Positions 8,927 to 50,312 of a DNA stretch of 51,969 bases are shown here, piece by piece. Position numbers and translations under genes: made by a program. The stretch is taken from the NCBI GenBank assembly GCA_023144005.1, contig JAGLGN010000019.1, positions 1-51,969 on the forward strand. Direction: 5' to 3'. The notes beneath the pieces are model-generated. The model worked only from the letters and a program-made list of their open reading frames with translations. It made no database searches and had not been told where the DNA came from. The stretch comes from a bacterium (lineage in GTDB: Bacteria > AUK180). The first letter of the stretch is position 1. Every line of letters starts with the position of its first letter.

Positions 8927-9670
8927 ATGAAATACAAATTAAAGTACGGCGTAGTAACGGATCGGGGAAAGAAAAGAGAGATCAATGAAGACAGCCTTCT
9001 TGTGCTGCCGAAGAAACATTTCTTTGCCGTCGCGGATGGAATGGGCGGACATTACGGCGGCGAGGTCGCCAGTAATCTTGCTGTTGATGTTCTGAAGGAA
9101 AAGATCAATAAGAACCACGCACTTTTCGGGGAAGATATCCCCAATGAGAATATGGAAGTTTTTGACCGTATCCTTAGCGATGTGAACCAGAAGATCCGTG
9201 ACAAATCCGCGAAATCCAAAACCTACAACGACATGGGGACAACTGTAGTCGGCCTCTTATTCTTTCCGAATACCGTACTTTCATTTCATGTGGGAGATTC
9301 CCGCAATTATCTTCTCAGAGAGGGCAAATTGTTTCAGATCTCATATGATCATTCCTGGGTGAATGAGCAGCTGCGCTTCAATAGATTATCAACGCATGAG
9401 GCGAGAACCCATAAATGGAAAAATGTAATAATGCGCGCCATGGGCGGTCAGGATATAATATTTCCCGAATATTCACAAATGGATATTTCAAAGGGTGACC
9501 TTTTCGTGATATGCTCCGATGGACTTTCCGATATGGTGCCGGACAGGACATTACAGAAACTTCTGAATCGTTTCGAAGATCCCCAGGAGATAGCCAATAT
9601 CCTGCTTAACGAAGCATTGAAGAAGGGTGGATTAGACAATATTACCATCGTCGTAGTGAGGGTAGTATAA
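8927..9670 (+). CDS. PP2C-family Ser/Thr protein phosphatase
   Basis: A metal-dependent protein phosphatase of 247 residues, the size of a bare PP2C (Stp/PrpC-like) catalytic domain without membrane segment. The family motifs are in order: REINEDSLLV, VADGMGGHYGGEVAS (metal-binding Asp), GTTVVGLLF, FHVGDSRNYLLREGKL, CSDGLSDMVPD (metal Asp) and GGLDNITIVVV. It shares one base with the downstream kinase gene (TAATG), so kinase and phosphatase are made from adjacent coding regions. It probably removes phosphates placed by that kinase and possibly by the other kinases of the window. Confidence 0.95.
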   Translation: MKYKLKYGVVTDRGKKREINEDSLLVLPKKHFFAVADGMGGHYGGEVASNLAVDVLKEKINKNHALFGEDIPNENMEVFDRILSDVNQKIRDKSAKSKTYNDMGTTVVGLLFFPNTVLSFHVGDSRNYLLREGKLFQISYDHSWVNEQLRFNRLSTHEARTHKWKNVIMRAMGGQDIIFPEYSQMDISKGDLFVICSDGLSDMVPDRTLQKLLNRFEDPQEIANILLNEALKKGGLDNITIVVVRVV

Positions 9671-11883
9671 TGTTACGCAGATGGGAAAATTTCATTATTT
9701 TCAAGGACTATGTATTCTTGAAAAAATTGGCGACCGGTGGAATGGCGAGGGTGTATTTAGCCCGCAAGAAAGGTGCACACGGTTTTGAGAAATTCTACGC
9801 CATTAAAGAACTCCATGACCATTTGAGAGAGAATGAATCGTTTTTCTCAATGTTCGTTCAGGAAGCGAAGCTGTCATCCAAATTGGATCATCCGAATATT
9901 GTAAAGATCTTTGACCTCCTTGGAGAGGAAGAGCACTTTTTTATAGTGATGGAATATGCCAAAGGCAAGAATATTCGGGATATCCTGCGGGTTGCAGCCG
10001 GACAGAAGGAAGATCTGTACCCTATCGCATTAAAAATAACCTCCGAAATGCTGATGGGCCTGGATTTCGCGCACAACTTAAAGGATATTAACGGAAATCC
10101 TCTGAATATCATCCATAGGGATATTTCTCCCCAGAATATTATGGTCTCTTATGAAGGGTCAGTGAAGGTTACCGATTTCGGGATCGCGAAAGCCGCTGAT
10201 AATGTAGAAGAAACGCGAACCGGTGTCTTGAAGGGAAAGGTTTCCTATATGTCTCCGGAGCAGGCCTTCGGAAGAAAACTTGACCGTCGTTCCGACCTAT
10301 ACTCCATGGGCATTATTCTATATGAGATGATCACATTGAAAAAGTGCTTCTCAGGAAAAAATTCCGTTGATATTCTTGAGAAGGTAAGAAATGGGAATTT
10401 CATAGCTGTTGATAAGATCGTTCCCGGGATCAACCCGCAGCTTAATAACATTTTAAATAAAGCATTGGCATATTCGGCTGATGAAAGATACCAGACCGCA
10501 GCCGAGTTCCAGAAGGATCTTGAGGACTTCATTTTCGAGAACAGGATACCCGTTAAGGACTTGAATGTCGCGAACCTTATGCACAAGATGTTCGAAAAAG
10601 ACATCAAGGAAGAATTTGACGAATTAGCCTCTCTATCCCGAAAGATCCAAAAGATCCCCTACTTAGCAGAAAAAAGTAATGATGATATAGAAACCGGCAG
10701 GGTAGTAGGCAGTTCGAGAAGGAGAACAAAGCCCAGGAAAACAGCGGCGAAAAAACAGAAGTCGAAAGAAAAAAAGCGGATCGGTTTTGGAGCACTGTTC
10801 CTGAACATTCTTCTTATGCTCTTCATTCCCCTATTGCTTTTTGACATCTTCTTTGTTTCATACTACAGGGATTTTGTTGACGCTTTCCCTTTCAAAGCAC
10901 CGGTAAAGCATACACTTAAGTACCGCCCGGGCTTTCTCCCTGATATTAATCTGGCGCCATATTACAAATATCGGGAGATCGATGTCTCCTCCCCCAGTTT
11001 GCCCGTGAAATACATCTTCCGCTCAAACCCCGCTCCGCTGCTTGTCAATATGGCAGGAAACGATACTATCATAGCTACACATGAGGAGTCCACGGGTATT
11101 TACTCAATAGATATCATGTCCTATATTGACTATAATCTGGTTTTTTCCACAAGCGGGTATCAGAATATCACAAAGAAAATATTCGTAAGGAACACCAATA
11201 CCATTCCTCATTCGATCAATTTGGAGGATAAGACCTCTACGATCACTTTCAAATTCGACCCCAAGGACGCAATGCTGTACATCAATGATCAGCTTCTTTC
11301 TCAGGAATCCCCCTATATATATTCGTATAATCCGGATAAAGAGACCGCGAGCCATACGATCAAGCTTAAAAAATCGGGATATGAAGGAATAGAGAAGATC
11401 ATCACATTCTCAGGTGATTCGAAAACCTATACAATAGCTCTGGAACCCAAGTTCATTAATGTCACATTCAGGATAGTTCCGTGGGGGATCGTAAGTGCAA
11501 AGGGCAAACAGATCGGTATCTGTAATAAGGAATCAAGTTTTACCAAGCGAATGCAGGCGGGTAAGTATGACTTTACTTTCCTCTACCCGGACAATGATGT
11601 TCAGCAGCAGGTTTCATATAATCTTGACAAGTCCCAAACCATTACATATAATTTTTCCAAGATCTATGCTCACGCATTCATCACCTCTTATCCCCCTCAA
11701 GCGGATATTTATGTCGATGATGTTCAAATGATGACTACACCTCAACAGGCCATGCCATTGAAAGCGGGCTATCACAAGATCGTTATTCACAAAAACGGAT
11801 TCTTGCCATGCACCCGGGAGATCAATGTTTCGCCCGGAGAGGAGATTGCTATTCACTGTGACCTTGAAAAAACGATAGAATGA
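9670..11883 (+). CDS. Membrane Ser/Thr kinase with PEGA-like C-terminal repeats
   Basis: Hanks-type kinase of 737 residues. The catalytic domain is at about 14-285: Gly-rich loop ATGGMARVYLA, Lys46 in AIKEL, HRD with Asp151 in HRDISPQNIM, DFGIAKA, and MSPEQAFG. All key residues are present, so it should be active. A basic stretch and one transmembrane helix (about 371-396) follow. The outer part (about 410-737) contains at least three PEGA-like beta repeats, clearest in the last (about 667-732: SYPPQADIYVDD ... PLKAGYHKIVIHKNGF). PEGA domains are known from surface or wall proteins and probably sense or bind an extracytoplasmic ligand here. It overlaps the phosphatase gene by 1 base and the sugar-transferase gene by 4, which points to control of envelope or glycan functions. 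Confidence 0.93.
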   Translation: MLRRWENFIIFKDYVFLKKLATGGMARVYLARKKGAHGFEKFYAIKELHDHLRENESFFSMFVQEAKLSSKLDHPNIVKIFDLLGEEEHFFIVMEYAKGKNIRDILRVAAGQKEDLYPIALKITSEMLMGLDFAHNLKDINGNPLNIIHRDISPQNIMVSYEGSVKVTDFGIAKAADNVEETRTGVLKGKVSYMSPEQAFGRKLDRRSDLYSMGIILYEMITLKKCFSGKNSVDILEKVRNGNFIAVDKIVPGINPQLNNILNKALAYSADERYQTAAEFQKDLEDFIFENRIPVKDLNVANLMHKMFEKDIKEEFDELASLSRKIQKIPYLAEKSNDDIETGRVVGSSRRRTKPRKTAAKKQKSKEKKRIGFGALFLNILLMLFIPLLLFDIFFVSYYRDFVDAFPFKAPVKHTLKYRPGFLPDINLAPYYKYREIDVSSPSLPVKYIFRSNPAPLLVNMAGNDTIIATHEESTGIYSIDIMSYIDYNLVFSTSGYQNITKKIFVRNTNTIPHSINLEDKTSTITFKFDPKDAMLYINDQLLSQESPYIYSYNPDKETASHTIKLKKSGYEGIEKIITFSGDSKTYTIALEPKFINVTFRIVPWGIVSAKGKQIGICNKESSFTKRMQAGKYDFTFLYPDNDVQQQVSYNLDKSQTITYNFSKIYAHAFITSYPPQADIYVDDVQMMTTPQQAMPLKAGYHKIVIHKNGFLPCTREINVSPGEEIAIHCDLEKTIE

Positions 11884-15527: not shown

Positions 15528-16411
15528 CTCATTCGCTATACCTTAATCTCGGGGTTTCCTTACTCGGCATTTACCTTCTTCTTCGGATAAGCGGATCTCT
15601 CCCCGCAAAGGAAGGTGAACCTCCAGGAATGCTGGGGTTGGTATTTCTGATACCGCTTGCCTTCATTTCTTATACCAGCGGGGACATAAAATTCGGGCTC
15701 ATCGGTGCTTTCGTCCTTCTCATCGGAATCCTGGATGATATCTTTGATCTATCGGCAATATTTAAACTGATACTACAGATATCCGCGGCTGGACTCTACT
15801 TTCTCCTTTTCCCTTCAACAACTATTTTTCAGCTCTTTCTCCTTGTTTTCATTTTCAATGCTTTTAATCTTTCCGACGGTATTGACGGCCTCCTTCTATC
15901 TCTTACATTCATTTCGATCTCTTGCGTATTCTTCTTTTACAGAGATCCTTCCCTTCTATTTCTTTTTTCGACCATGCTGCTTCTTACATTGGTAAACTTT
16001 CCCAAAGCCAAGATATACCTCGGAGATACGGGTTCACACTTTCTGGGATTGATCTTCTTTCACTTCTTCAGAGCGGCATTTACCGGTGTGTCGGACTTCT
16101 ATCTTCTTCCCATTTTTATCATGATATGTTTTTATCCCTTCTTCGATACTGCCTTCGCGCTAATACGCAGATCCATTCAAAAGAAAAACCCGATGCAGGG
16201 GGACCTGAAACACATTCACCATGTTCTGAGAGGAAAATTCGGCGCTATACGTTCTTTGATATTACTCATCTCATTGAATCTTATAAATAATGTGATATTT
16301 ATCACCATTTACAAATATGTAGGTTTGAAAATAATTCCTGTAAGTAGTATAATTATAATGGCAATTGAAGGATTTTTATTAATTTATGCGTGGAAAAGTA
16401 AAAGACTATGA
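15524..16411 (+). CDS. WecA/TagO-type polyprenyl-phosphate HexNAc-1-phosphate transferase
   Basis: Multi-pass GT4-family enzyme that loads a HexNAc-1-phosphate onto a polyprenyl phosphate. Visible motifs are [34 protein letters not shown] and the cytoplasmic DLKHIHHVL. The first ATG (15629) would remove the first membrane helix. The frame is open back to 15515 and encodes a good helix ([12 protein letters not shown]) plus the [11 protein letters not shown] loop. No ATG, GTG or TTG lies in that extension. The best candidate is ATA at 15524, 5 bases after AGAGG and overlapping the preceding stop as ATAA, just as other genes of this operon overlap as ATGA. I use that start (295 residues); the start is inference. 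The 3' end overlaps the next kinase gene by 26 bases. Confidence 0.82.
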
Positions 16412-18332
16412 AATAATCGAAAAAATCGCCTCCGGCGGTATGGCGGATGTCTTTAAAGCAAAAAAACTCGGCGCTCGAGGATTTTCCAAGATCTTCGCTA
16501 TAAAGGTCATCAAAGAAGATATCTCCAAGGATACAAAACTAAAGGATATGTTCGTCAAAGAGGCCGAATTGTCAGCCCGTTTGGTTCACCCTAATATTGT
16601 CCAGATATTCGAATTGGGCGAAGAGGAGGGCGTGCTTTACATCGTTATGGAATATATCCACGGAAAGAATCTTCGCGAGATCGACAAATTGATCGGCTTC
16701 AGAAAAATCTCATGGAAAAAATCCGCATATATCGCCTATAAAAGCGCGCTGGGACTGGATTTCGCCCATGGCGCCAAGGACCATTACGGAAGGCCCCTTG
16801 AGATCGTTCACCGTGATATATCTCCGCAGAATATAATGGTTACCTTCTCCGGCGAGGTCAAGGTCGCGGACTTCGGAATTGCCAAGGTGGCAAAGGACGG
16901 TATTAAAGAAGAAAAGGTCCTCGCGGGGAAATATCCATTCATGTCGCCCGAACAAACAAAGGGCGATGTTCTTGACAAACGCTCTGATCTCTTTTCTCTG
17001 GGAATAGTATTTTATCAAATGCTCACCGGCAGGCCGCCCTTCACCGGAAAGAACGGACTGGAAATAATAAAGAGTATTCGAAACGACGCGCCAACTCCCC
17101 CGTATAAAGTTAATCCTGATATTCCTGTCAATGTTTCAAACATCGTTATGAAGTGCCTGGAAAAGGAGCCCGATTTCCGTTACAATACCGGTTTGGAAGT
17201 TGCCAAGGACATCGAGAAATATCTTCCCAATTTGATAGACATTTCAAATAAATTAGGGGAATTCCTTCTTGAAAAATATACGGTCAATCTGTCAAATAAC
17301 ATGACAAAGACCTCTCTTGATCAATCAATGGAATCAACGGAAACTCAGATATCAAAAACCATAAGCTCTATTATGGAGATGTTGAGGGAAGAACCCGAGA
17401 ATGTTGAATATCTTGAAAAGATCGGCTCAATTTATCTTATTCAGAAGAAATTCGATAAGGCATCGGAGTATTTCACCAGAGGGCTAGCGCTAGACGATTC
17501 TAACTTTCTCATCAGATTCAGGCTGGCTCAGATATTTCTACGAAAAAAGGATAAGTACAGTTTCTCCCATCAATACACCATTTTGAAGAAATTGGACCCG
17601 AAAAATCCTCATATTGATCTTCTCCACCTCCAGTATTTGATCATTTTCAAGAAATGGAAAGAGGCAGCGAAAGAGTTGAAAAGACTTGCCAAGATTGAAG
17701 ATTTCCATGATAATATCGATTTCCTTGTCCTTCAAGCAGAATATTATTCATTCAAAAAAGAGTATTCTAAGGTGATCAATAATTATCTCAAGATCTCTGA
17801 GATCGAACCGGAATTCTATTTCTTCAAAGAAGAGGTCAGACTCCTTGTTGAGGACCTATATGTATCCATCTTCGGAGAGGAAAAGATCATTGGCGAGATG
17901 ACTTCCAACGGCGAGAAGGAAGCCGAGAAAGCACACGCTAAAACCTATGAAGGGAAGAAAGCGCTTGTGATCGAAGACGATAAGAACACGCGGATCCTTC
18001 TGAAAATAATCCTTTCTGACGAGGGCTTTTCAGTTGATATGGCAAAAAGCGCGTTCAATGTTGAGAAATTACTCGAAATGCATGATTATGATCTCATCAT
18101 TATGGATGTCCTGATGCCCGGAAAGAACGGCTTCAAACTCCTCGAGCAGCTGCAAAAGAGTAATCTGATCGTTGAACATACAAAGGTCTTCATGATATCC
18201 GGAATATATAAATCGGCTAAATTTAAAAATATGGCAAGCGATCTGGGGGTGCTGGTGTATCTGGAGAAACCGTTTACAGCCAAACAGATCTCCCGGCATA
18301 TTCACAAGCATGTACATGGAAAAGTCAGTTAA
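16386..18332 (+). CDS. Soluble Ser/Thr kinase fused to TPRs and a response-regulator receiver
   Basis: A 648-residue protein without membrane segment. The kinase domain (about 8-270) is complete: SGGMADVFKA, Lys40 in FAIKVI, HRDISPQNIM with Asp144, DFGIAK, and FMSPEQTKG. Residues about 330-500 are TPR-like helical repeats (EKIGSIYLIQKKFDKASEYF and similar). The C terminus (about 523-645) is a receiver: ALVIEDDKNTR, phosphoacceptor Asp574 in IIMDVLMPG, the Ser of MISG, and Lys in YLEKPFTAKQ. This joins eukaryote-like Ser/Thr phosphorylation to a two-component phosphorelay in one chain. No histidine kinase is nearby. It overlaps the WecA-like gene by 26 bases and the Xer gene by up to 23, and shares HRDISPQNIM with the PEGA kinase, so the two kinases look like relatives. 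Confidence 0.93.
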   Translation: MRGKVKDYEIIEKIASGGMADVFKAKKLGARGFSKIFAIKVIKEDISKDTKLKDMFVKEAELSARLVHPNIVQIFELGEEEGVLYIVMEYIHGKNLREIDKLIGFRKISWKKSAYIAYKSALGLDFAHGAKDHYGRPLEIVHRDISPQNIMVTFSGEVKVADFGIAKVAKDGIKEEKVLAGKYPFMSPEQTKGDVLDKRSDLFSLGIVFYQMLTGRPPFTGKNGLEIIKSIRNDAPTPPYKVNPDIPVNVSNIVMKCLEKEPDFRYNTGLEVAKDIEKYLPNLIDISNKLGEFLLEKYTVNLSNNMTKTSLDQSMESTETQISKTISSIMEMLREEPENVEYLEKIGSIYLIQKKFDKASEYFTRGLALDDSNFLIRFRLAQIFLRKKDKYSFSHQYTILKKLDPKNPHIDLLHLQYLIIFKKWKEAAKELKRLAKIEDFHDNIDFLVLQAEYYSFKKEYSKVINNYLKISEIEPEFYFFKEEVRLLVEDLYVSIFGEEKIIGEMTSNGEKEAEKAHAKTYEGKKALVIEDDKNTRILLKIILSDEGFSVDMAKSAFNVEKLLEMHDYDLIIMDVLMPGKNGFKLLEQLQKSNLIVEHTKVFMISGIYKSAKFKNMASDLGVLVYLEKPFTAKQISRHIHKHVHGKVS

Positions 18333-42194: not shown

Positions 42195-44850
42195 TCAGCT
42201 TTTTCTTTAATGCCGAGAGCAGTTTCAATGCGTCAATGGGAGCGATCGCGTCCGGATCCAGTTCTCTTAGGTCGCGTAGAACTTCCGTCTCATTCTCATC
42301 GGGCATCTCGGTTGAAAAGAGGGAAGGCTGCAAAAATCTTCTTTGGGCCTGGCTGATGCTTTTAGCCGAACCGCCTTCTTCGAGCTGGGCGAGTATCTGG
42401 CCGGCACGTTCGATAACATCTTCGGGAATTCCGGCTAATTTAGCCACATATATACCATAACTCTTATCGGCACTGCCCTTTATTAATTTCCTCAAGAAGA
42501 TGATCTTCTCGCCGTATTCCTTAACATCCACCTTATATATCTCTACCCTGTCCAGATAATCGCCGATACGTGTGATCTCGTGATAATGTGTCGCGAAAAG
42601 TGTCTTTGCCTGCTGGCCTTCCTTCCTGTGCAGGAATTCTATCACCGCCCAGGCGATAGAGAGGCCGTCATAAGTGGAAGTCCCTCTTCCTACTTCATCA
42701 AGGATTATCAGACTCCTGTCGGTAGCTGAGGATAGGATATTCGCGACCTCATTCATCTCCACCATGAAGGTTGACTGGCCCAATGCCAGATTGTCACTGG
42801 CGCCGATGCGGGTGAATATCCTGTCAACAACGCCGATATGGGCCTCATCCGCGGGGATAAACATACCTACCTGTGCCATCAGGACAATAACGGCTATCTG
42901 CCTCAGAAATGTAGATTTTCCAGCCATATTGGGACCGGTAATGATGTGGATTTGAGAATCTGAATTATTCATCTCCAGATCATTCGGAATGAATGGCTCT
43001 CCTAAGTCCTGCTGCTCTATCACCGGATGACGGCCGCCTTTGATCTTTATACTGTCCCCGTCATTTATCCCGGGACGGGAAAAATAATACTTCTGCGCGC
43101 AGTTTTTCAAAGCCGTATATAGATCGATCCTCCCTACAACGGAACAATACTTGGAAAGCTCATCATAATAGGGTTCAAAGAAAGACAGCGCCTCAGCCCA
43201 AAGAGTTCGCTCGCGTGATTTGATCTTCTCATCTACTGTCAATATTTCCTCTTCACGCTCTTTAAGTTCGGGAGTAATAAATCTTTCGCTGTTCACCAGG
43301 GTCTGCTTTCTGATTATCTCCGGCGGAAGTTCGATCTCATTCAATTTCAATTTACTTAACTCAAAGTAATATCCATGTATCCTATTGTATCCCAATTTGA
43401 TCCCGGGAACATTCAATTTTGCCTTAAGTTCTTCAAGGATGCCCTTGATTATTCCTTTCCCATTTTTTGAAATATCTCTCAGATGGTCAAGTTCGGCATC
43501 ATATCCTTCTCTGAAGATCCCGGTGTCATTGGAAACCACGGGCGGAGAATCCGAAATAGCGGAGAGAAGAAATTCACTGGTCTTCTCTATATGGCTTTTT
43601 GAAGCTTCCATATCAGCCGCCATCGCCTTTCCCAGAACGGAGTCCAATACTCCGACAAATGAAAATACCTGCGGAAAGACCTCCAATCCGGCCCTCAGAA
43701 CAAGTAATTCAGGGGGTTTTACTACACCTAAAGAGATCTTTGAGAGTATCCTCTCGATGTCCTTGATCCTCTTCAAGGTCTCTTCCAGTTCCAGCGTATC
43801 ATAATTGGTCAATTCTTCAACTATATCAAGGCGCGCCTGTATCGCTTCCACATCAAGAAGAGGCCTCATCAAACGCTTTTTTAGCAGCCTTGAACCCATC
43901 GGGGTCTGATTCAGGTCTAATATATCAAAAAGATTCGGGCCGCCCCGCGCAGGAAGAATATCCAGATTCAATTGTGTGTACAGATCAAGGAACATATGTT
44001 CCAGTTCTCTCTGAGGAGTCATCCTCCTGATGTGAAGCAGGCTGCTCTTTTGGGTTTCCTTCAGATATGAAAGCAATATTCCGGCGGCCCTGATCTCTCC
44101 TTCATTTTCAAAACCGCTGGCTTTCAAAGTATTTATACCCAAATGGGAAAGTAATTGATCTTCACAATACCTGGAATCCCCTTTCCAATCGTCAATATGA
44201 TTGAATGCGAGTTCGGGGAGCAAGCGCTTCACTGAAGAAAGAAGTTCGGCTCCGCCTTCCAGATAACTCCCGTACGACGAGGATTCCACGATCACTTCGC
44301 TGGGGGAGATCTTAATGATATGAGAGATCACTCCCCGCATGAATTCATCCTTTTTCATAGTACAGAAGTGAAATTCACCGGTGGAAATATCACAAAACGC
44401 CGTATAGGCGGAATCATCTGTCTCCACTATCGAAAGTATATTGTTATTTGATTTAATGTCCACGACCTTATCGTCAATTATAGTCCCGGGTGTAACGATC
44501 CTGACAACATCCCGTTTGACAACGCCTTCGGCTAATTTGGGATCCTCGACTTGCTCGCAAACAGCGGCATTATGCCCTGCTTTGACAAGTTTATACAGAT
44601 AAGAATCCAAAGCGTGATATGGAATCCCTGCCAATGGGATAGATTCTCCATTGGACGATTTCCCCCGTGATGTAAGCGCGATATTCAACACTCTGGAAGC
44701 GGTACGGGCGTCTTCAAAGAATGTCTCATAGAAATCACCAACCCTGTACAGCAGGATCGTATCAGGATACTTCTCCTTGATCTTCAGGAATTGGCGGATC
44801 ATTGGAGTCTCGTTCGGTTTATTTTTCCCTTTTGATGATCCTGCCTTCAT
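42184..44850 (-). CDS. mutS: DNA mismatch repair protein MutS
   Basis: Mismatch-recognition ATPase of 888 residues, full family length. The mismatch-contact Phe-x-Glu is in GDFYETFFEDA near the N terminus. Walker A is GPNMAGKSTFLRQIA with Lys645; STFMVEMNEVANIL and ILDEVGRGTSTYDGLSIAW follow, and the helix-turn-helix dimer region is near AKLAGIPEDVIERA. An in-frame ATG at codon 17 lacks a ribosome site, so the ATG at 44850 is kept (AAAAGGGAT before it). No mutL is in the window. It overlaps the upstream SPOR gene by 32 bases. Confidence 0.97.
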   Translation of the reverse strand: MKAGSSKGKNKPNETPMIRQFLKIKEKYPDTILLYRVGDFYETFFEDARTASRVLNIALTSRGKSSNGESIPLAGIPYHALDSYLYKLVKAGHNAAVCEQVEDPKLAEGVVKRDVVRIVTPGTIIDDKVVDIKSNNNILSIVETDDSAYTAFCDISTGEFHFCTMKKDEFMRGVISHIIKISPSEVIVESSSYGSYLEGGAELLSSVKRLLPELAFNHIDDWKGDSRYCEDQLLSHLGINTLKASGFENEGEIRAAGILLSYLKETQKSSLLHIRRMTPQRELEHMFLDLYTQLNLDILPARGGPNLFDILDLNQTPMGSRLLKKRLMRPLLDVEAIQARLDIVEELTNYDTLELEETLKRIKDIERILSKISLGVVKPPELLVLRAGLEVFPQVFSFVGVLDSVLGKAMAADMEASKSHIEKTSEFLLSAISDSPPVVSNDTGIFREGYDAELDHLRDISKNGKGIIKGILEELKAKLNVPGIKLGYNRIHGYYFELSKLKLNEIELPPEIIRKQTLVNSERFITPELKEREEEILTVDEKIKSRERTLWAEALSFFEPYYDELSKYCSVVGRIDLYTALKNCAQKYYFSRPGINDGDSIKIKGGRHPVIEQQDLGEPFIPNDLEMNNSDSQIHIITGPNMAGKSTFLRQIAVIVLMAQVGMFIPADEAHIGVVDRIFTRIGASDNLALGQSTFMVEMNEVANILSSATDRSLIILDEVGRGTSTYDGLSIAWAVIEFLHRKEGQQAKTLFATHYHEITRIGDYLDRVEIYKVDVKEYGEKIIFLRKLIKGSADKSYGIYVAKLAGIPEDVIERAGQILAQLEEGGSAKSISQAQRRFLQPSLFSTEMPDENETEVLRDLRELDPDAIAPIDALKLLSALKKKLNEK

Positions 44851-45670
44851 ATCCCTTTTCTTTTATTTTCTTAAGTTTTTTCTTGGCATCACTACGGTTC
44901 TTAAAGCGGCCTGAATACACCTTATAATATTTGCCGCTTTTGAGAACAAATACATCTTTAATACCGGCTTCCTTCATTTCAGATTTATATGTTTCCGCAC
45001 CCGTCTCCTTCGAGAACGCTCCTAATTGTATCGTCCAGAATATATTCTCCACTATTTCTTCGATCATTACCATGGGCGGGTACTTGCCCTTCAATATTTC
45101 TTCGGCATCCCTCACTTTTTCATCTATGCCCCTTGAGCGGTAATAAATACTCAGGTGAAAGATAGAGGGAAGATAAAAAGAGCTATCGGGCTGATGTGAA
45201 AGAGAAGACATCTTAGAGAAGTACAGATCATTTTCCCCTGTCTTCATCGCGATGACCCCCAAGTAGAAATTCACCTTATCCGCATATTTACCACCGGGAT
45301 AATTCCAGAGGTACTGTTCCAGGTAATAGCGGGAATTATTAAAATTGGATGAAATGTAATAATTCATTGACAGAAAATAATAAGCATCCTCGGCAAATTT
45401 TGAATGCGGGAACATTTCAAGAAAATCCTTGAATTCCACTATCTGCTGAAAGATATCCTGTGCGAAATAGGCCGCGTAATACCTTGCGGATTCCGCGTAT
45501 TCCGACCGGGGGCTTTTAAGATAGATCGACCGGAGAAAGAGAATGCCCTCTTCATACTGTTCCGATGCGATCGCCTCAAGGCCTTTTCTATGAAGTTCTG
45601 CGAGGGTTTCAGCTGCGGGAATAGAAGCCATAATGATCACTAATAAGATGATAGGAATTGCTTTATTCAT
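44819..45670 (-). CDS. Exported TPR protein with C-terminal SPOR domain
   Basis: A 283-residue periplasmic or membrane-anchored protein. GGGAGG precedes the ATG at 45670. The signal sequence is MNKAIPIILLVIIMASIPAA; no lipobox cysteine is seen. Residues about 25-200 are BamD/CpoB-like TPRs (KGLEAIASEQYEEGILFLRS, FKDFLEMFPHSKFAEDAYYF). The SPOR domain (about 210-280) has FWTIQLGAFSKETGAETYK, GKYYKVYSGRFKNRSDAKKK, and a basic end. SPOR domains bind denuded glycan at division sites. It overlaps miaB by 8 bases and mutS by 32. Confidence 0.85.
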   Translation of the reverse strand: MNKAIPIILLVIIMASIPAAETLAELHRKGLEAIASEQYEEGILFLRSIYLKSPRSEYAESARYYAAYFAQDIFQQIVEFKDFLEMFPHSKFAEDAYYFLSMNYYISSNFNNSRYYLEQYLWNYPGGKYADKVNFYLGVIAMKTGENDLYFSKMSSLSHQPDSSFYLPSIFHLSIYYRSRGIDEKVRDAEEILKGKYPPMVMIEEIVENIFWTIQLGAFSKETGAETYKSEMKEAGIKDVFVLKSGKYYKVYSGRFKNRSDAKKKLKKIKEKGYEGRIIKREK

Positions 45671-46985
45671 TTTCGGGCCTCCCAAAAAGAGTGAATGAGT
45701 TACCATCATAAATTTTCATTCTCACCACCTTTCCAATATAGTCGTCCGGAAAATCCGCCACCACGATCATATCATGAGTGTCCCTTCCCGAGATCTTCTT
45801 CCCGGTCTTGTCCTTGCCGTCAAAAAGAACTTCTTGTGTTGTCCCTATATAATCCGACGCGATTTCCCTTGTGATCTCTTTTTGTATATCGATCGCGTAA
45901 TTCAAGCGGCGTAGTTTTTCTTCGACCGGAATATTATCCTCATATTCTGCTGCTGCCGTACCTGCCCGGGGCGTATATTTAAAAAGAAAACCCGTTTTAT
46001 ACCTGATATCTTTCAAGAGGTCGACAGATCTTAGAAAATCCGCTTCACTTTCCCCGGGAAAACCGAATATCATATCGGTTGATAATGCGATGTCCGGAAG
46101 TTTTTCCCTTAGAGATACGATCTTGCCCACATATTCCTCCCTGGTGTATTTTCGGTTCATTCTCTTCAATACTTCATTCGAACCTGATTGAACAGGAAGG
46201 TGCAAACTGTGTGCCATCTTGGGTTCTTCGGCAATAATATCAGCAAGCTCATCATTAAAATCCTTGGGGTGCGAGGTAATGAACCTTAATCTGAAAAGAT
46301 CAGAGAATTTCAATATTTTCTTCAATAGCTCCGGAAAATCTATCTCCCGCTGAATCCCGTCAGTAAATGGGATGCCGTAGGAATTGACATTCTGCCCGAG
46401 GAGGATGATCTCTCTGAAGCCCCTGTTTAAGAGATCTTGGATCTCCGCTAAGACCCGCTCAGGAGTATTGGATAATTCGCCGCCGCGCGCAAATGGAACG
46501 ATACAATAGGAACAGTAATTATTACAGCCCTTCATTATCTCAACGAAAGCGGTATATTCGGAGTCGCGAGAAGCATTTAACGCATACTCCAGGTCCTCGT
46601 CTTCAAAGGAAAGGTCTATCACTCTTTGAGAATCTGATATTTGCTCCAATTGCCGGGCAATATTATGTTTATTACGGCTTCCAAAGATGAGAGGCACATA
46701 TGTATATTTCTCATAAAGCTCTTCACCCTTGACTTGGGTAACACATCCGCCTAAAGCGATCTGAACTCCCTCTTTTCCCTTTTTATGTATCTGCCCCATC
46801 TTGCCGTATATCTTCCGTTCCGCTGTTTCCCTTACCATACAGGTATTGAAGATGACGATATCTGCATCGAACTCGGATGAGGATTCCTCATAGCCCTGAG
46901 AAAGAAGACGGCCTTTCATTTTCTGCGCCTCCAACACATTCATTTGACATCCGTAATTCAAGATAAAAAAGGTTTTTGAGCTCAT
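45663..46985 (-). CDS. miaB: tRNA methylthiotransferase MiaB
   Basis: Radical-SAM enzyme that converts i6A37 to ms2i6A37 in tRNA; 440 residues. N-terminal cluster cysteines are Cys13 (NYGCQMN), Cys49 (FNTCMVRE) and Cys81 (LGGCVTQ). The radical-SAM motif is GCNNYCSYCIVPFARGG; MiaB usually has RGRE after this, here GGE. ILLGQNVNSYG and LHLPVQSGSNEVLKRMNRKY follow, and a C-terminal TRAM domain ends the protein. Among related enzymes the CQMN start and GQNVNSYG favour MiaB over MtaB or RimO. It overlaps the upstream kinase by 4 bases. Confidence 0.94.
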   Translation of the reverse strand: MSSKTFFILNYGCQMNVLEAQKMKGRLLSQGYEESSSEFDADIVIFNTCMVRETAERKIYGKMGQIHKKGKEGVQIALGGCVTQVKGEELYEKYTYVPLIFGSRNKHNIARQLEQISDSQRVIDLSFEDEDLEYALNASRDSEYTAFVEIMKGCNNYCSYCIVPFARGGELSNTPERVLAEIQDLLNRGFREIILLGQNVNSYGIPFTDGIQREIDFPELLKKILKFSDLFRLRFITSHPKDFNDELADIIAEEPKMAHSLHLPVQSGSNEVLKRMNRKYTREEYVGKIVSLREKLPDIALSTDMIFGFPGESEADFLRSVDLLKDIRYKTGFLFKYTPRAGTAAAEYEDNIPVEEKLRRLNYAIDIQKEITREIASDYIGTTQEVLFDGKDKTGKKISGRDTHDMIVVADFPDDYIGKVVRMKIYDGNSFTLFGRPENE

Positions 46986-48412
46986 TTCATGATCTTATAT
47001 ATTTCGGCCTTCATATCTTCCGATTGAGCATTTACTATGGCTTTCTTGAAATAGGAGCTGGAAAGGACCTTTTCACCCTTCGCTTTGTAAAAGTGTCCGA
47101 GGCGTTTATATATAAAATACCTGTCGGATCTGGAGGAGTATTTTATAACCTCGCTGGCAATTTCGATAAATTTTTTCTCATCTGTAATGTAGTAGAGGTC
47201 AAAGAGCCTCTTGTTCACATCATACTTACTTCCGGGGAATCTATCCTTCAGAGCGAGCAGGATATCTTCCGCGAGAGGGTATTCCGAGTGATCCTGGCAC
47301 CATAGAGCATATGCAATACTGTCCTCTTGATTGAACACCCCGTAATTTGATATCACGTGCGCCTTGATATCTACAAATATCCCTGATAACGGGAAATTCC
47401 CTAATTTTTCCGCCTGCCATACCGCCATAGAGACGAGGGCGAGCAAAATGAATAAAAAGAGAATGATCCCCCGGAAGATATTAAAGAAGGAAACTTTCTT
47501 TTTCTTCTTCTTGACGGGTTCGACCGGGAATTCTTCAACCGCATATACCTTTTTTACAATGAGTTCATCACCTGCATGATAGTCGCTATAACTCTGATCT
47601 GTAATGGAATAGGATTTCAGGCTATCCATCTCTTCAATTACCTCATCAACGGTCTTATATCTGTCATTTGGATCCGTCCTCAGCATTCTCATACAAACAC
47701 TTGAAATATACTCGGGCACTAGATGCCTTCTGCTTGATAACGGTTCGGGCGGCTCCGTGGTCTTGGCCTTCACGATCTCTTCATTTTCTCCAAGAAACGG
47801 CGCTTCTCCGGCATAAAGCTCATAAAGGATTATTCCCAATTGATAAATATCGGTATGGTAACCGACCTTATCTCCCTTGATCTGTTCCGGAGCGATATAC
47901 TTGATCGTGCCTATAAGTGTATCTTTTTTTAGTATATCCTTATCGATATCCACTCCGATGCCGAAATCCGTGATCTTTATCTTCCCGGAATTTTCGATCA
48001 TAATATTGGAGGGCTTAAGGTCCATGTGAAGGATCTTCTTCTCATGAATATATGAGAGCGCTCGAAGTATCTCCTTGAAGATCACTTCGTTCTCATCAAA
48101 GGACATACCCCTCTCCATAAGCTGTTTCAATGTCTTGCCGTTGATATACTCCATTACATAGAAGAAGAAATCGTTATATTTGGCGTTCTCATAGACCTTA
48201 ACTATATGAGGGTCATCCAATTGGGCCATGATCTGGCCTTCACGGATAAACATTTTCACAACATCAACATTTTTCTTGAACTTCGGCAATAGCGCTTTGA
48301 TAGCGATGTCGCGCTTAAGGGTCGGGTCATAGGCATGATACACAATGGCCATGCCGCCCTGGCCTAACTTCCCTTTTATCAGATATTTACCAAAAAGGAG
48401 CTTCTCTTCCAT
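46982..48412 (-). CDS. Membrane Ser/Thr kinase of HMD (non-RD) type with TPR tail
   Basis: A 476-residue Hanks-type kinase. The Gly-rich loop is KLGQGGMAIVYHAY and the ATP lysine is Lys39 (IAIKALLPK). The catalytic loop reads LHMDLKPSNIM (Asp131), with Met in place of the Arg before the catalytic Asp. DFGIGVDI, GTIKYIAPEQIKG and the rest of the fold are intact, so catalysis is expected without activation-loop control of the RD type. A basic KKKKKK stretch and one helix (about 311-332, GIILFLFILLALVSMAVW) lead to TPR-like repeats (about 360-476). It shares one base with the pseudokinase gene upstream, and the two have the same kinase-helix-TPR layout. Confidence 0.92.
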   Translation of the reverse strand: MEEKLLFGKYLIKGKLGQGGMAIVYHAYDPTLKRDIAIKALLPKFKKNVDVVKMFIREGQIMAQLDDPHIVKVYENAKYNDFFFYVMEYINGKTLKQLMERGMSFDENEVIFKEILRALSYIHEKKILHMDLKPSNIMIENSGKIKITDFGIGVDIDKDILKKDTLIGTIKYIAPEQIKGDKVGYHTDIYQLGIILYELYAGEAPFLGENEEIVKAKTTEPPEPLSSRRHLVPEYISSVCMRMLRTDPNDRYKTVDEVIEEMDSLKSYSITDQSYSDYHAGDELIVKKVYAVEEFPVEPVKKKKKKVSFFNIFRGIILFLFILLALVSMAVWQAEKLGNFPLSGIFVDIKAHVISNYGVFNQEDSIAYALWCQDHSEYPLAEDILLALKDRFPGSKYDVNKRLFDLYYITDEKKFIEIASEVIKYSSRSDRYFIYKRLGHFYKAKGEKVLSSSYFKKAIVNAQSEDMKAEIYKIMK

Positions 48413-50277
48413 TATTTCCTTAATTTCTTGTATTCTTTATAGGCATTGTTACCCACACGGGAGCCTTTGTAATTTTCCATGAGGAATCTGTAGAGCTTCA
48501 TTGCCCTTTTCTTTTCATTGATCTCAGCATAGAACTGGGCCTTCGAAAAGATCGTTGTCGGGTAAAGAAGCTTATCTCCTTTGAGTATACCTTCCAGCGT
48601 ATTATATGTCTTGAGAATGTCGGAATACCGTTTTTCTGCTCTATAATAATCGATCATTTTGAAATAAATCCGATGAAGGCTGTAGGCATCCATTGAAGGA
48701 TTGGCGATCAATTTTTCCAAAACAGCGTATGCCTTGCTCATATGTTCCGGGTCATTTTCATTACCGCTGTAAAAATCGGCCAGTCTCAATCCCAGATCAA
48801 CCTTATCATTTACCGTTACTGCTTTCTTGATCTGCTTTTTGATCGCTTTTATCTCTTTAGTGTCATAGGACTTCTTGCTTGAAAGGACTATGGCAAATAT
48901 AAGCACAGGGATCAGGATCACCGGTATCAGGATAAAGAGCGGCAATTTCCTTTTTTTCTTTTTTTCGCTGCTCAGGAGATTCGGATTTGTAATATCTTCT
49001 GTAATCGTGGGAGCCATTTCTTCAAATTCATTTGCGCGGGAGGATCGTGCGGGTTCCGTGACATAACTGTCATCACTGTATGTTTCAGGCGGAGGGCCGA
49101 ATTCGTCAACAACACTATCCTCTTGAGAAGCCTCTTGTACGGAAACGGCAGCCATTTGCTCCCTCTCCTTTTTGTGCTCTTCAAATAACTTTCGGGCTTT
49201 CTCCTTTTCCACACGCTTTCTCTCGTCGTAGGCACATGAAGGGCAGAAGATCTTACCGTCTATATTCTCCGCGCAATCTTCACAGATATCACAAGAACAA
49301 CTGACACATTTGTGAGCAGCGGGGCGTTTGGGATGATATTTACAAAGAGCTTCTTTTTTCTCGGCCTTGACCTCTGCTTCTCCTCCGGAAAGTTCTTCGA
49401 TACATTTCTGGCAGAAATGATCGCTTCCGATCACCCGGGCATCGGACAGGAGAATGGGTTTGTTGCATCTTGTACATTCCCCGTCAGCAATCTTATTATT
49501 ATCGTAATATGCGAATCGTATGGGCAGATTATTCTCCAAAAGCGCTTCATACACAGTATCGGAAGCTATTCTATCACCGGATTCCGGCAACATCATTTTC
49601 TCAAGAAGCCCCTTGTAGTCGGATAGCTCGGATGGGATATCGATCTGAGCTTCTTTGATCTGCTGGGGAGAAAATGTTTTGCCCGTCTGATAAAATATAA
49701 TAAAAAGCGCCAGGGAAAATACATCAGACGCGGGCGTGATCGGCTGTCCCTTGAGATGTTCGGGGGAAAGAAAAGATAATTCCTCATCGTAGAATCTGCC
49801 GATCTTCTTGATTAATGTAATATCGTCCCATCCCATCATAATGTCCAGATAATACGGTGTACCTGAATCACTGATCATAAAAAGCGTGGGGGACGAATTG
49901 CCCACACTTACGCCTTCCTGATGGAAATCTCTGAATATCTTGACCAAGGCGACCATAAGATTATGTTTCATATCCGGTTTATTTTTCAAAACCGGTATCA
50001 CCTGATCCAATGTCTTTCCGAAGGTCTTGAAAACATATCCAAACGAAATATATGGGAAATTTGAATGTATGCCCTTATCCATATCAAGTATCTGCGGAAG
50101 GTTGATCGATCCTAATTGCTCTTTGCGTTTCTTAAAATACACCGCATATTCCTTTGTTTTGAAGAAGGGGTCCTGAAGAAGCAGCATCAAACGATCTTCG
50201 CCCTTGATATTGGCCTTAAATAAGGAAACATGCTTTCTACTGAAAAGGTTATCTGTAATTTGTATTATATTATCCAT
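48412..50277 (-). CDS. Membrane pseudokinase with zinc-ribbon/B-box-like domain and TPR tail
   Basis: A 621-residue protein with a kinase-like N-terminal domain that lacks the catalytic set. There is no Gly-rich loop, the VAIK lysine position reads LMLLLQ, the HRD segment reads HQEGVSVGNSS, and DFG is replaced by LDIMMG. The C-lobe landmarks FLSPEHLKGQPITPASDVFSLALFI are kept. Two zinc-type modules follow: CTRC (Cys268/271) with CQKC (Cys289/292), then a B-box-like stretch from Cys312 (CKYHPKRPAAHKCVSCSCDI, CEDCAENIDGKIFCPSCA) to about 349. After an acidic linker come one helix (about 445-466) and TPR-like repeats. It starts the operon from a leaderless-type promoter and is translationally linked (TAATG) to the active kinase. 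It is probably an allosteric partner or scaffold. Confidence 0.85.
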   Translation of the reverse strand: MDNIIQITDNLFSRKHVSLFKANIKGEDRLMLLLQDPFFKTKEYAVYFKKRKEQLGSINLPQILDMDKGIHSNFPYISFGYVFKTFGKTLDQVIPVLKNKPDMKHNLMVALVKIFRDFHQEGVSVGNSSPTLFMISDSGTPYYLDIMMGWDDITLIKKIGRFYDEELSFLSPEHLKGQPITPASDVFSLALFIIFYQTGKTFSPQQIKEAQIDIPSELSDYKGLLEKMMLPESGDRIASDTVYEALLENNLPIRFAYYDNNKIADGECTRCNKPILLSDARVIGSDHFCQKCIEELSGGEAEVKAEKKEALCKYHPKRPAAHKCVSCSCDICEDCAENIDGKIFCPSCAYDERKRVEKEKARKLFEEHKKEREQMAAVSVQEASQEDSVVDEFGPPPETYSDDSYVTEPARSSRANEFEEMAPTITEDITNPNLLSSEKKKKRKLPLFILIPVILIPVLIFAIVLSSKKSYDTKEIKAIKKQIKKAVTVNDKVDLGLRLADFYSGNENDPEHMSKAYAVLEKLIANPSMDAYSLHRIYFKMIDYYRAEKRYSDILKTYNTLEGILKGDKLLYPTTIFSKAQFYAEINEKKRAMKLYRFLMENYKGSRVGNNAYKEYKKLRK

Positions 50278-50283
50278 ACTATC

Positions 50284-50312
50284 ATTTTACCACAATTGCT
50301 CTGCGATTTCAA
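50284..50312 (-). promoter_or_regulatory. Promoter predicting a leaderless mRNA for the pseudokinase gene
   Basis: On the minus strand TTGAAA (50312-50307), a 17-base spacer and TAAAAT (50289-50284). Six bases separate the -10 from the ATG at 50277, so transcription should start on or next to the A of the start codon. There is no Shine-Dalgarno sequence in those six bases. Confidence 0.65.

Follow-up and report, generated by a model that had tools for sequence, protein, structure and literature searches.

Do bacteria, too, place live kinases under the allosteric control of dead ones? This logic is well known in animal cells and not yet shown in bacteria, and a pair of genes in a bacterial contig of 51,969 nucleotides (hereafter the window) allows the question to be asked. 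A sequence-only reading of the window had proposed that the first gene encodes a degenerate kinase fold with two zinc modules and the second an intact kinase, and that the two proteins, each with one membrane helix and a TPR tail, form an allosteric complex at the inner membrane. The gene structure proved to be as described. The first gene (48412..50277) encodes a 621-aa protein and the second (46982..48412) a 476-aa protein, both on the minus strand, as are all parts of the two genes and of their operon discussed below. They have a single base in common, within a TAATG stop/start overlap (48410..48414), and a Shine-Dalgarno-like AAGGAA (48416-48421) lies just upstream of it. A promoter scan returned one sigma70-like site upstream of the pair, at 50284-50312, which is within chance expectation.

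We compared seven genomes of this little-known bacterial class (G000-G006) that span two families, f1 and f2, the latter comprising G005 and G006. All seven encode an orthologue of the first protein, whose N-terminal domain (residues 1-250; 49528..50277) has a kinase fold. The single sequence matches Pfam Pkinase weakly (E=0.004), while a profile of the seven orthologues matches PDB kinases at 3e-10, and hhalign aligns this family to that of the partner kinase with 99% probability over 195 columns. The AF2 model (pLDDT 77.5) resembles Mycobacterium tuberculosis PknB and CaMKII, with TM(target) about 0.72. These profile and fold searches rule out a chance resemblance to kinases.

What has been lost from this fold are the residues of catalysis. 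In G000 numbering, the Gly loop is absent, the beta3 Lys is replaced by L32 (the position is lost in five of seven orthologues), and HRD reads V125-G126-N127, with the Asp lost in all seven and the position occupied by VGN, LGN or FGL across orthologues. The catalytic-loop Lys and Asn are S129 and L132, and the APE position is S171-P-E. The C-lobe core is retained, although the alphaC Glu has become an Arg, R51, that is invariant in 7/7. The earlier claim that Gly loop, ATP Lys, HRD and DFG are all missing thus needs correction at its last item: the DFG position is D145-I-M, and its Asp is kept in six of the seven. The raw sequences of G005 and G006 also carry a Lys in the beta3 region (YYIKTLK, WIKVIK), outside the G000-numbered column. 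Loss of the beta3 Lys, the HRD Asp or the DFG Asp from a kinase fold is a mark of pseudokinases within the protein kinase superfamily, and on its sequence the first gene's product is best called a pseudokinase, of a new, lineage-restricted bacterial family with a kinase partner.

The partner looks very different. Its PknB-like catalytic domain (residues 10-262; 47627..48385) matches Pfam Pkinase at E=3.8e-55, and the Gly loop, beta3 Lys, alphaC Glu, HxD Asp, DFG and APE are invariant in 7/7. Judged by these residues, the gene encodes an active Hanks-type kinase. Within this protein, conservation is highest in the N-lobe. It scores 275 against the NCBIfam PASTA-kinase model NF033483, for which the cut-off is 450, and has no PASTA repeats. 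The description of this kinase as intact holds for its catalytic residues and fails at one position: the Arg that marks an RD kinase is replaced, the triplet being H[ML]D in all seven orthologues (HMD here, residues 129-131; 48020..48028), so the kinase is non-RD. In other kinases the HRD Arg usually contacts the phosphorylated activation loop, and among the seven orthologues the partner has no conserved activation-loop Thr. A paralogue set from the same genomes (L032, L030, L031 and L038) has a TxTGT loop, L032 and its orthologues retaining the widespread TMTGTLMGTPAYMSPE form; two further sets, A and B, have HRD yet also lack the TxTGT loop. A non-RD motif combined with a Thr-poor activation loop is a separate ground for expecting activation in trans, and the partner kinase may need another way of switching on. 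Non-RD status does not require a pseudokinase, since 6 of the 50 other kinases in our tree are non-RD, among them two f2 paralogues, themselves HLD, that have no known partner.

The sequence-only reading had staked its proposal on the two genes being conserved together, and a search of other genomes found that they are. Both occur side by side, in the same order and on the same strand, in all seven class genomes and hence in both families, whose pseudokinases are 23% identical; the one-base overlap recurs in most of the seven. A tree built from 64 kinase domains groups all seven pseudokinases in a single clade and all seven partners in a second, each supported at 99/99. Both clades divide into f1 and f2, which points to a single ancient origin of each gene and to their being inherited together. 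The two clades are not joined to each other in this tree; a topology that holds them together comes close to rejection without reaching it (AU p=0.058), the branches being long, and origin of the pseudokinase by duplication of the partner is neither supported nor rejected. Outside the class, we found no full-length relative in 379 genomes with the best three candidates per genome scored; the best match, 61 bits, covers the kinase domain alone. A contig scan, sensitive to close relatives only, found just the same-genus relative.

The dead domain is also under constraint. Comparison of two species of the same genus gives an omega of 0.037 in the pseudokinase domain, against 0.066 in the live one, a difference not to be pressed because the underlying counts are small. 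Such strong purifying selection argues that the dead domain is not a decaying copy. The pseudokinase is intact in seven genomes with an omega of 0.09, which rules out a pseudogene or a sequencing error.

The two proteins have the same predicted layout. One hydrophobic stretch in each forms the membrane helix (pseudokinase residues 447-465, 48883..48939; partner residues 312-330, 47423..47479), as had been claimed. The Lys-rich N side of the helix would, by the positive-inside rule, put each kinase fold on the cytoplasmic side of the membrane and each helical tail on the other, an argument that is weaker for the pseudokinase, which also has Lys after its helix. The tails are TPR-like and helical in both models (pseudokinase residues 474-620, 48418..48858, pLDDT mostly above 85; partner residues 343-475, 46988..47386). 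The earlier assignment of TPR repeats is borne out by these models and only in some orthologues by Pfam TPR matches. Compared by hhalign, the tails match at 94-96% in some family combinations and not at all in others; since TPR-like repeats are generic, we make no claim that the tails are homologous. The genes' constant co-occurrence, order and co-orientation, together with the start/stop overlap and the like topology of their products, speak for a functional pair.

Between its kinase fold and its membrane helix, the pseudokinase carries two zinc modules, which we find within residues 268-349, as proposed, with their predicted ligands present and near-invariant. Module 2 (residues 312-348; 49234..49344) is B-box-like, with two predicted Zn sites and eight alternating Cys/His ligands in 7/7, spaced C-x2-H, C-x2-C, C-x2-C, C-x2-C (C312, H315, C324, C327, C332, C335, C345 and C348). 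All are invariant except C348, which is His in G003. The window protein scores 17 against the Pfam B-box zinc finger (PF00643), below the cut-off of 24.1 that only G006 exceeds. Module 1 (residues 268-292; 49402..49476) has four Cys here, C268, C271, C289 and C292, invariant across the seven orthologues. The f2 proteins carry module 1 as a complete second copy with eight ligands, detected at about 1e-17 to 1e-18. The f1 version aligns to it without gaps and has kept ligand pairs 2 and 4 and lost pairs 1 and 3. In the cross-brace topology of RING and B-box domains, pairs 1 and 3 together make up one of the two sites. The f1 proteins have thus lost exactly one site's ligands from module 1 and would bind about three zinc ions where f2 proteins bind four. 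By their sequences, the two modules are a tandem pair.

B-box-like modules had been called uncommon on bacterial kinases. The module type itself is common, being present in 67 of 386 genomes. Its attachment to a kinase fold does appear unusual within a limited sample, as 23 carriers from other lineages than the class were inspected and none matches a kinase model. That model also misses the degenerate pseudokinase of G003, so other degenerate kinases could escape it.

The pair belongs to a larger operon. Its third gene (45663..46985) encodes, by Pfam, a MiaB-like radical SAM methylthiotransferase. Beyond miaB, the f1 operon continues with a gene for a secreted TPR-like/SPOR protein, mutS and another gene. 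The TPR-like/SPOR gene (44819..45709; SPOR E=2e-15, YfiO 7e-8; placed in the operon by synteny) probably has its true start near 45670. In f1 it separates miaB from mutS and may connect the operon with septal peptidoglycan, and we regard its product as a candidate envelope partner of the pair.

How might the two proteins work together? We give about even weight to the proposal that they are halves of an inner-membrane complex, in which the pseudokinase would be a non-catalytic partner, serving the non-RD kinase as allosteric activator or scaffold on the model of STRAD and LKB1. The extracytoplasmic TPR tails could bind each other or a common envelope ligand, perhaps the operon's TPR-SPOR protein, and this periplasmic input would draw the kinase folds together in the cytoplasm. 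Contact with the dead fold would then stabilize the live one in its active conformation, substituting for phosphorylation of the activation loop; the zinc modules and the linker might recruit substrates or readers. A tight common interface sits uneasily with the rates of change of the two N-lobes, because that of the pseudokinase evolves much faster (identity over f1 of 0.31 vs 0.82 for the kinase). Less likely is the more specific reading of a class-wide receptor, with the zinc-bearing membrane pseudokinase as a dedicated allosteric activator of its neighbor; the pair would then be an independently evolved counterpart of STRAD-LKB1. Fixed across the class, and with a partner that lacks the usual activation features, it offers a small test system friendly to work with soluble domains.

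The pseudokinase might instead serve its partner as scaffold and substrate, a reading suggested by the linker between the zinc modules and the membrane helix. This linker is disordered (pLDDT < 50) and poorly conserved except for one island just before the helix (residues 417-431; 48985..49029), with the motif [DE]F.[DE]...T[IV][TS]E.[ILV].[NS] in the f1 alignment. T424 and the Glu at +3, E427, are invariant in f1, making the island a possible phospho-Thr dock for FHA domains, of which each of the seven genomes has 5-8 matches. The partner would phosphorylate T424, FHA proteins would dock there, and the zinc modules would recruit more partners, much as the tail of MviN is phosphorylated by PknB and recruits FhaA (PMC12599244). 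We consider this doubtful. The island was picked by inspection among four effective f1 sequences, its core FxDxxxT[IV][TS]E is unrecognizable in f2, though f2 keeps the pair, and no FHA gene lies near the pair; moreover, phosphorylation of the linker would leave the partner's missing activation-loop features unexplained. Activation and scaffolding of this kind are not mutually exclusive.

Two other explanations would dispense with a joint function or with a dead kinase. The pair lies in a housekeeping operon (miaB, mutS), so that its linkage could be passive and the two membrane kinase-fold proteins could work separately. Conservation of the operon does extend beyond the pair, as miaB adjoins the kinase gene in G001-G004 and G006, with mutS and others following in the first four of these. 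Yet the pair is the constant core in all seven genomes, including G006 and also G005, whose contig stops just past the kinase gene; with the common fold and topology and the overlapping genes, this makes passive neighbors unlikely. It is very unlikely, in turn, that the kinase-like domain is not dead and either binds nucleotide for another activity or binds ATP structurally. Degenerate kinase folds can be enzymes, as SelO, which AMPylates, and SidJ, which glutamylates, show (PMC12599244), and the retained DFG Asp and the beta3-region Lys of f2 would fit such a role. In the f1 proteins, however, the Gly loop and the catalytic Asp are gone, as are the beta3 Lys, the alphaC Glu, and both the Lys and the Asn of the catalytic loop, and only R51 and G126 are invariant among the replacements.

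The closest precedent for an activating role is eukaryotic. STRADalpha, a pseudokinase that has lost most catalytic residues, activates LKB1 without phosphorylation of the LKB1 activation loop (PMC3014569). Unlike the window protein, it is soluble, needs MO25, and bears neither zinc modules nor a TM helix or TPR tail; what the two systems have in common is their logic, and we claim no homology beyond the kinase fold. Non-RD kinases in general are thought not to need activation-loop phosphorylation, although it does matter in one of them (PMC8463890).

Experiments have left most of the biology of bacterial pseudokinases unexplored, according to a 2025 review that lists the ActPs1-3, GLW, CP1, DYD and DLHK families along with EssB/YukC, SidJ and SelO (PMC12599244). 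That review does not mention zinc, and no kinase gene appears in the pseudokinase operons it lists (PMC12599244). EssB/YukC resembles the window protein in having a cytoplasmic pseudokinase, one TM helix and an extracytoplasmic helical domain (PMC12599244), and differs in having neither zinc modules nor a kinase partner. Membership was rejected, as the window protein has no Pfam YukC match at E<=1 and its neighbors are miaB, the TPR-SPOR gene, mutS and others; no T7SS genes were seen in the window. MviN/ActPs3 of Mycobacterium is likewise a membrane pseudokinase working with a PknB-type kinase, dimerizes back to back as canonical bacterial kinases do, and has a phosphorylated tail read by an FHA protein (PMC12599244). 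It is, in contrast, attached to a flippase, encoded in an operon without a kinase gene, degenerate in other motifs and free of zinc. We rejected membership in this actinobacterial family, which has a short activation loop and Y-- for DFG, since the window family has a DIM/DFL-type motif and has kept its activation segment. The GLW family of Proteobacteria also has a replaced HRD, a run of Leu for the beta3 Lys and a TM helix C-terminal to the domain (PMC12599244). Zinc modules and a kinase partner are not described for it, and the VGN, LGN or FGL motif and a different phylum exclude the window protein. The live partner compares best with PknB (Foldseek TM(target) 0.90, 32% identity), having the same N-in, C-out single TM, and differs from it in being non-RD, in lacking a TxT activation loop and in bearing a TPR-like tail in place of PASTA repeats.

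In the open-access literature we found no bacterial pseudokinase that is described as regulating a kinase encoded beside it; a description in a subscription journal is possible. New here are the non-RD status of the partner, the tandem zinc pair with loss of one site in f1, and the FxDxxxT[IV][TS]E motif before the TM helix. An anti-phage defense role for the kinases was considered and rejected: the PADLOC matches to PD-T4-6 and MADS are generic kinase-domain matches, and there are no defense genes nearby.

Other degenerate kinases turned up in the course of the comparison. In another phylum, L143 (G378:C295, 1-3830, minus strand) encodes a 1276-aa protein with three tandem kinase-like domains and TPR repeats. 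Its HRD positions read HLA, HGA and YGR, none of them canonical, and the region after the kinase-like domains is possibly PP2C-like by eye, with no Pfam match. L142 (G125:C41, 6610-8679) is a PASTA-repeat pseudokinase standing alone, with HGQFSPRS for HRDxKxxN. Within the window itself, at 8927-11883, a PP2C phosphatase gene overlaps by one base the gene of a PEGA-domain kinase with HRDISPQN as its catalytic loop, Ser standing in for Lys. The HRD[IV]SPQN loop recurs in paralogue sets of all seven genomes, and a further kinase with the HRDISPQN loop, at 16386-18332 of the window, has a TPR-like region and, by eye, a C-terminal response-regulator receiver domain.
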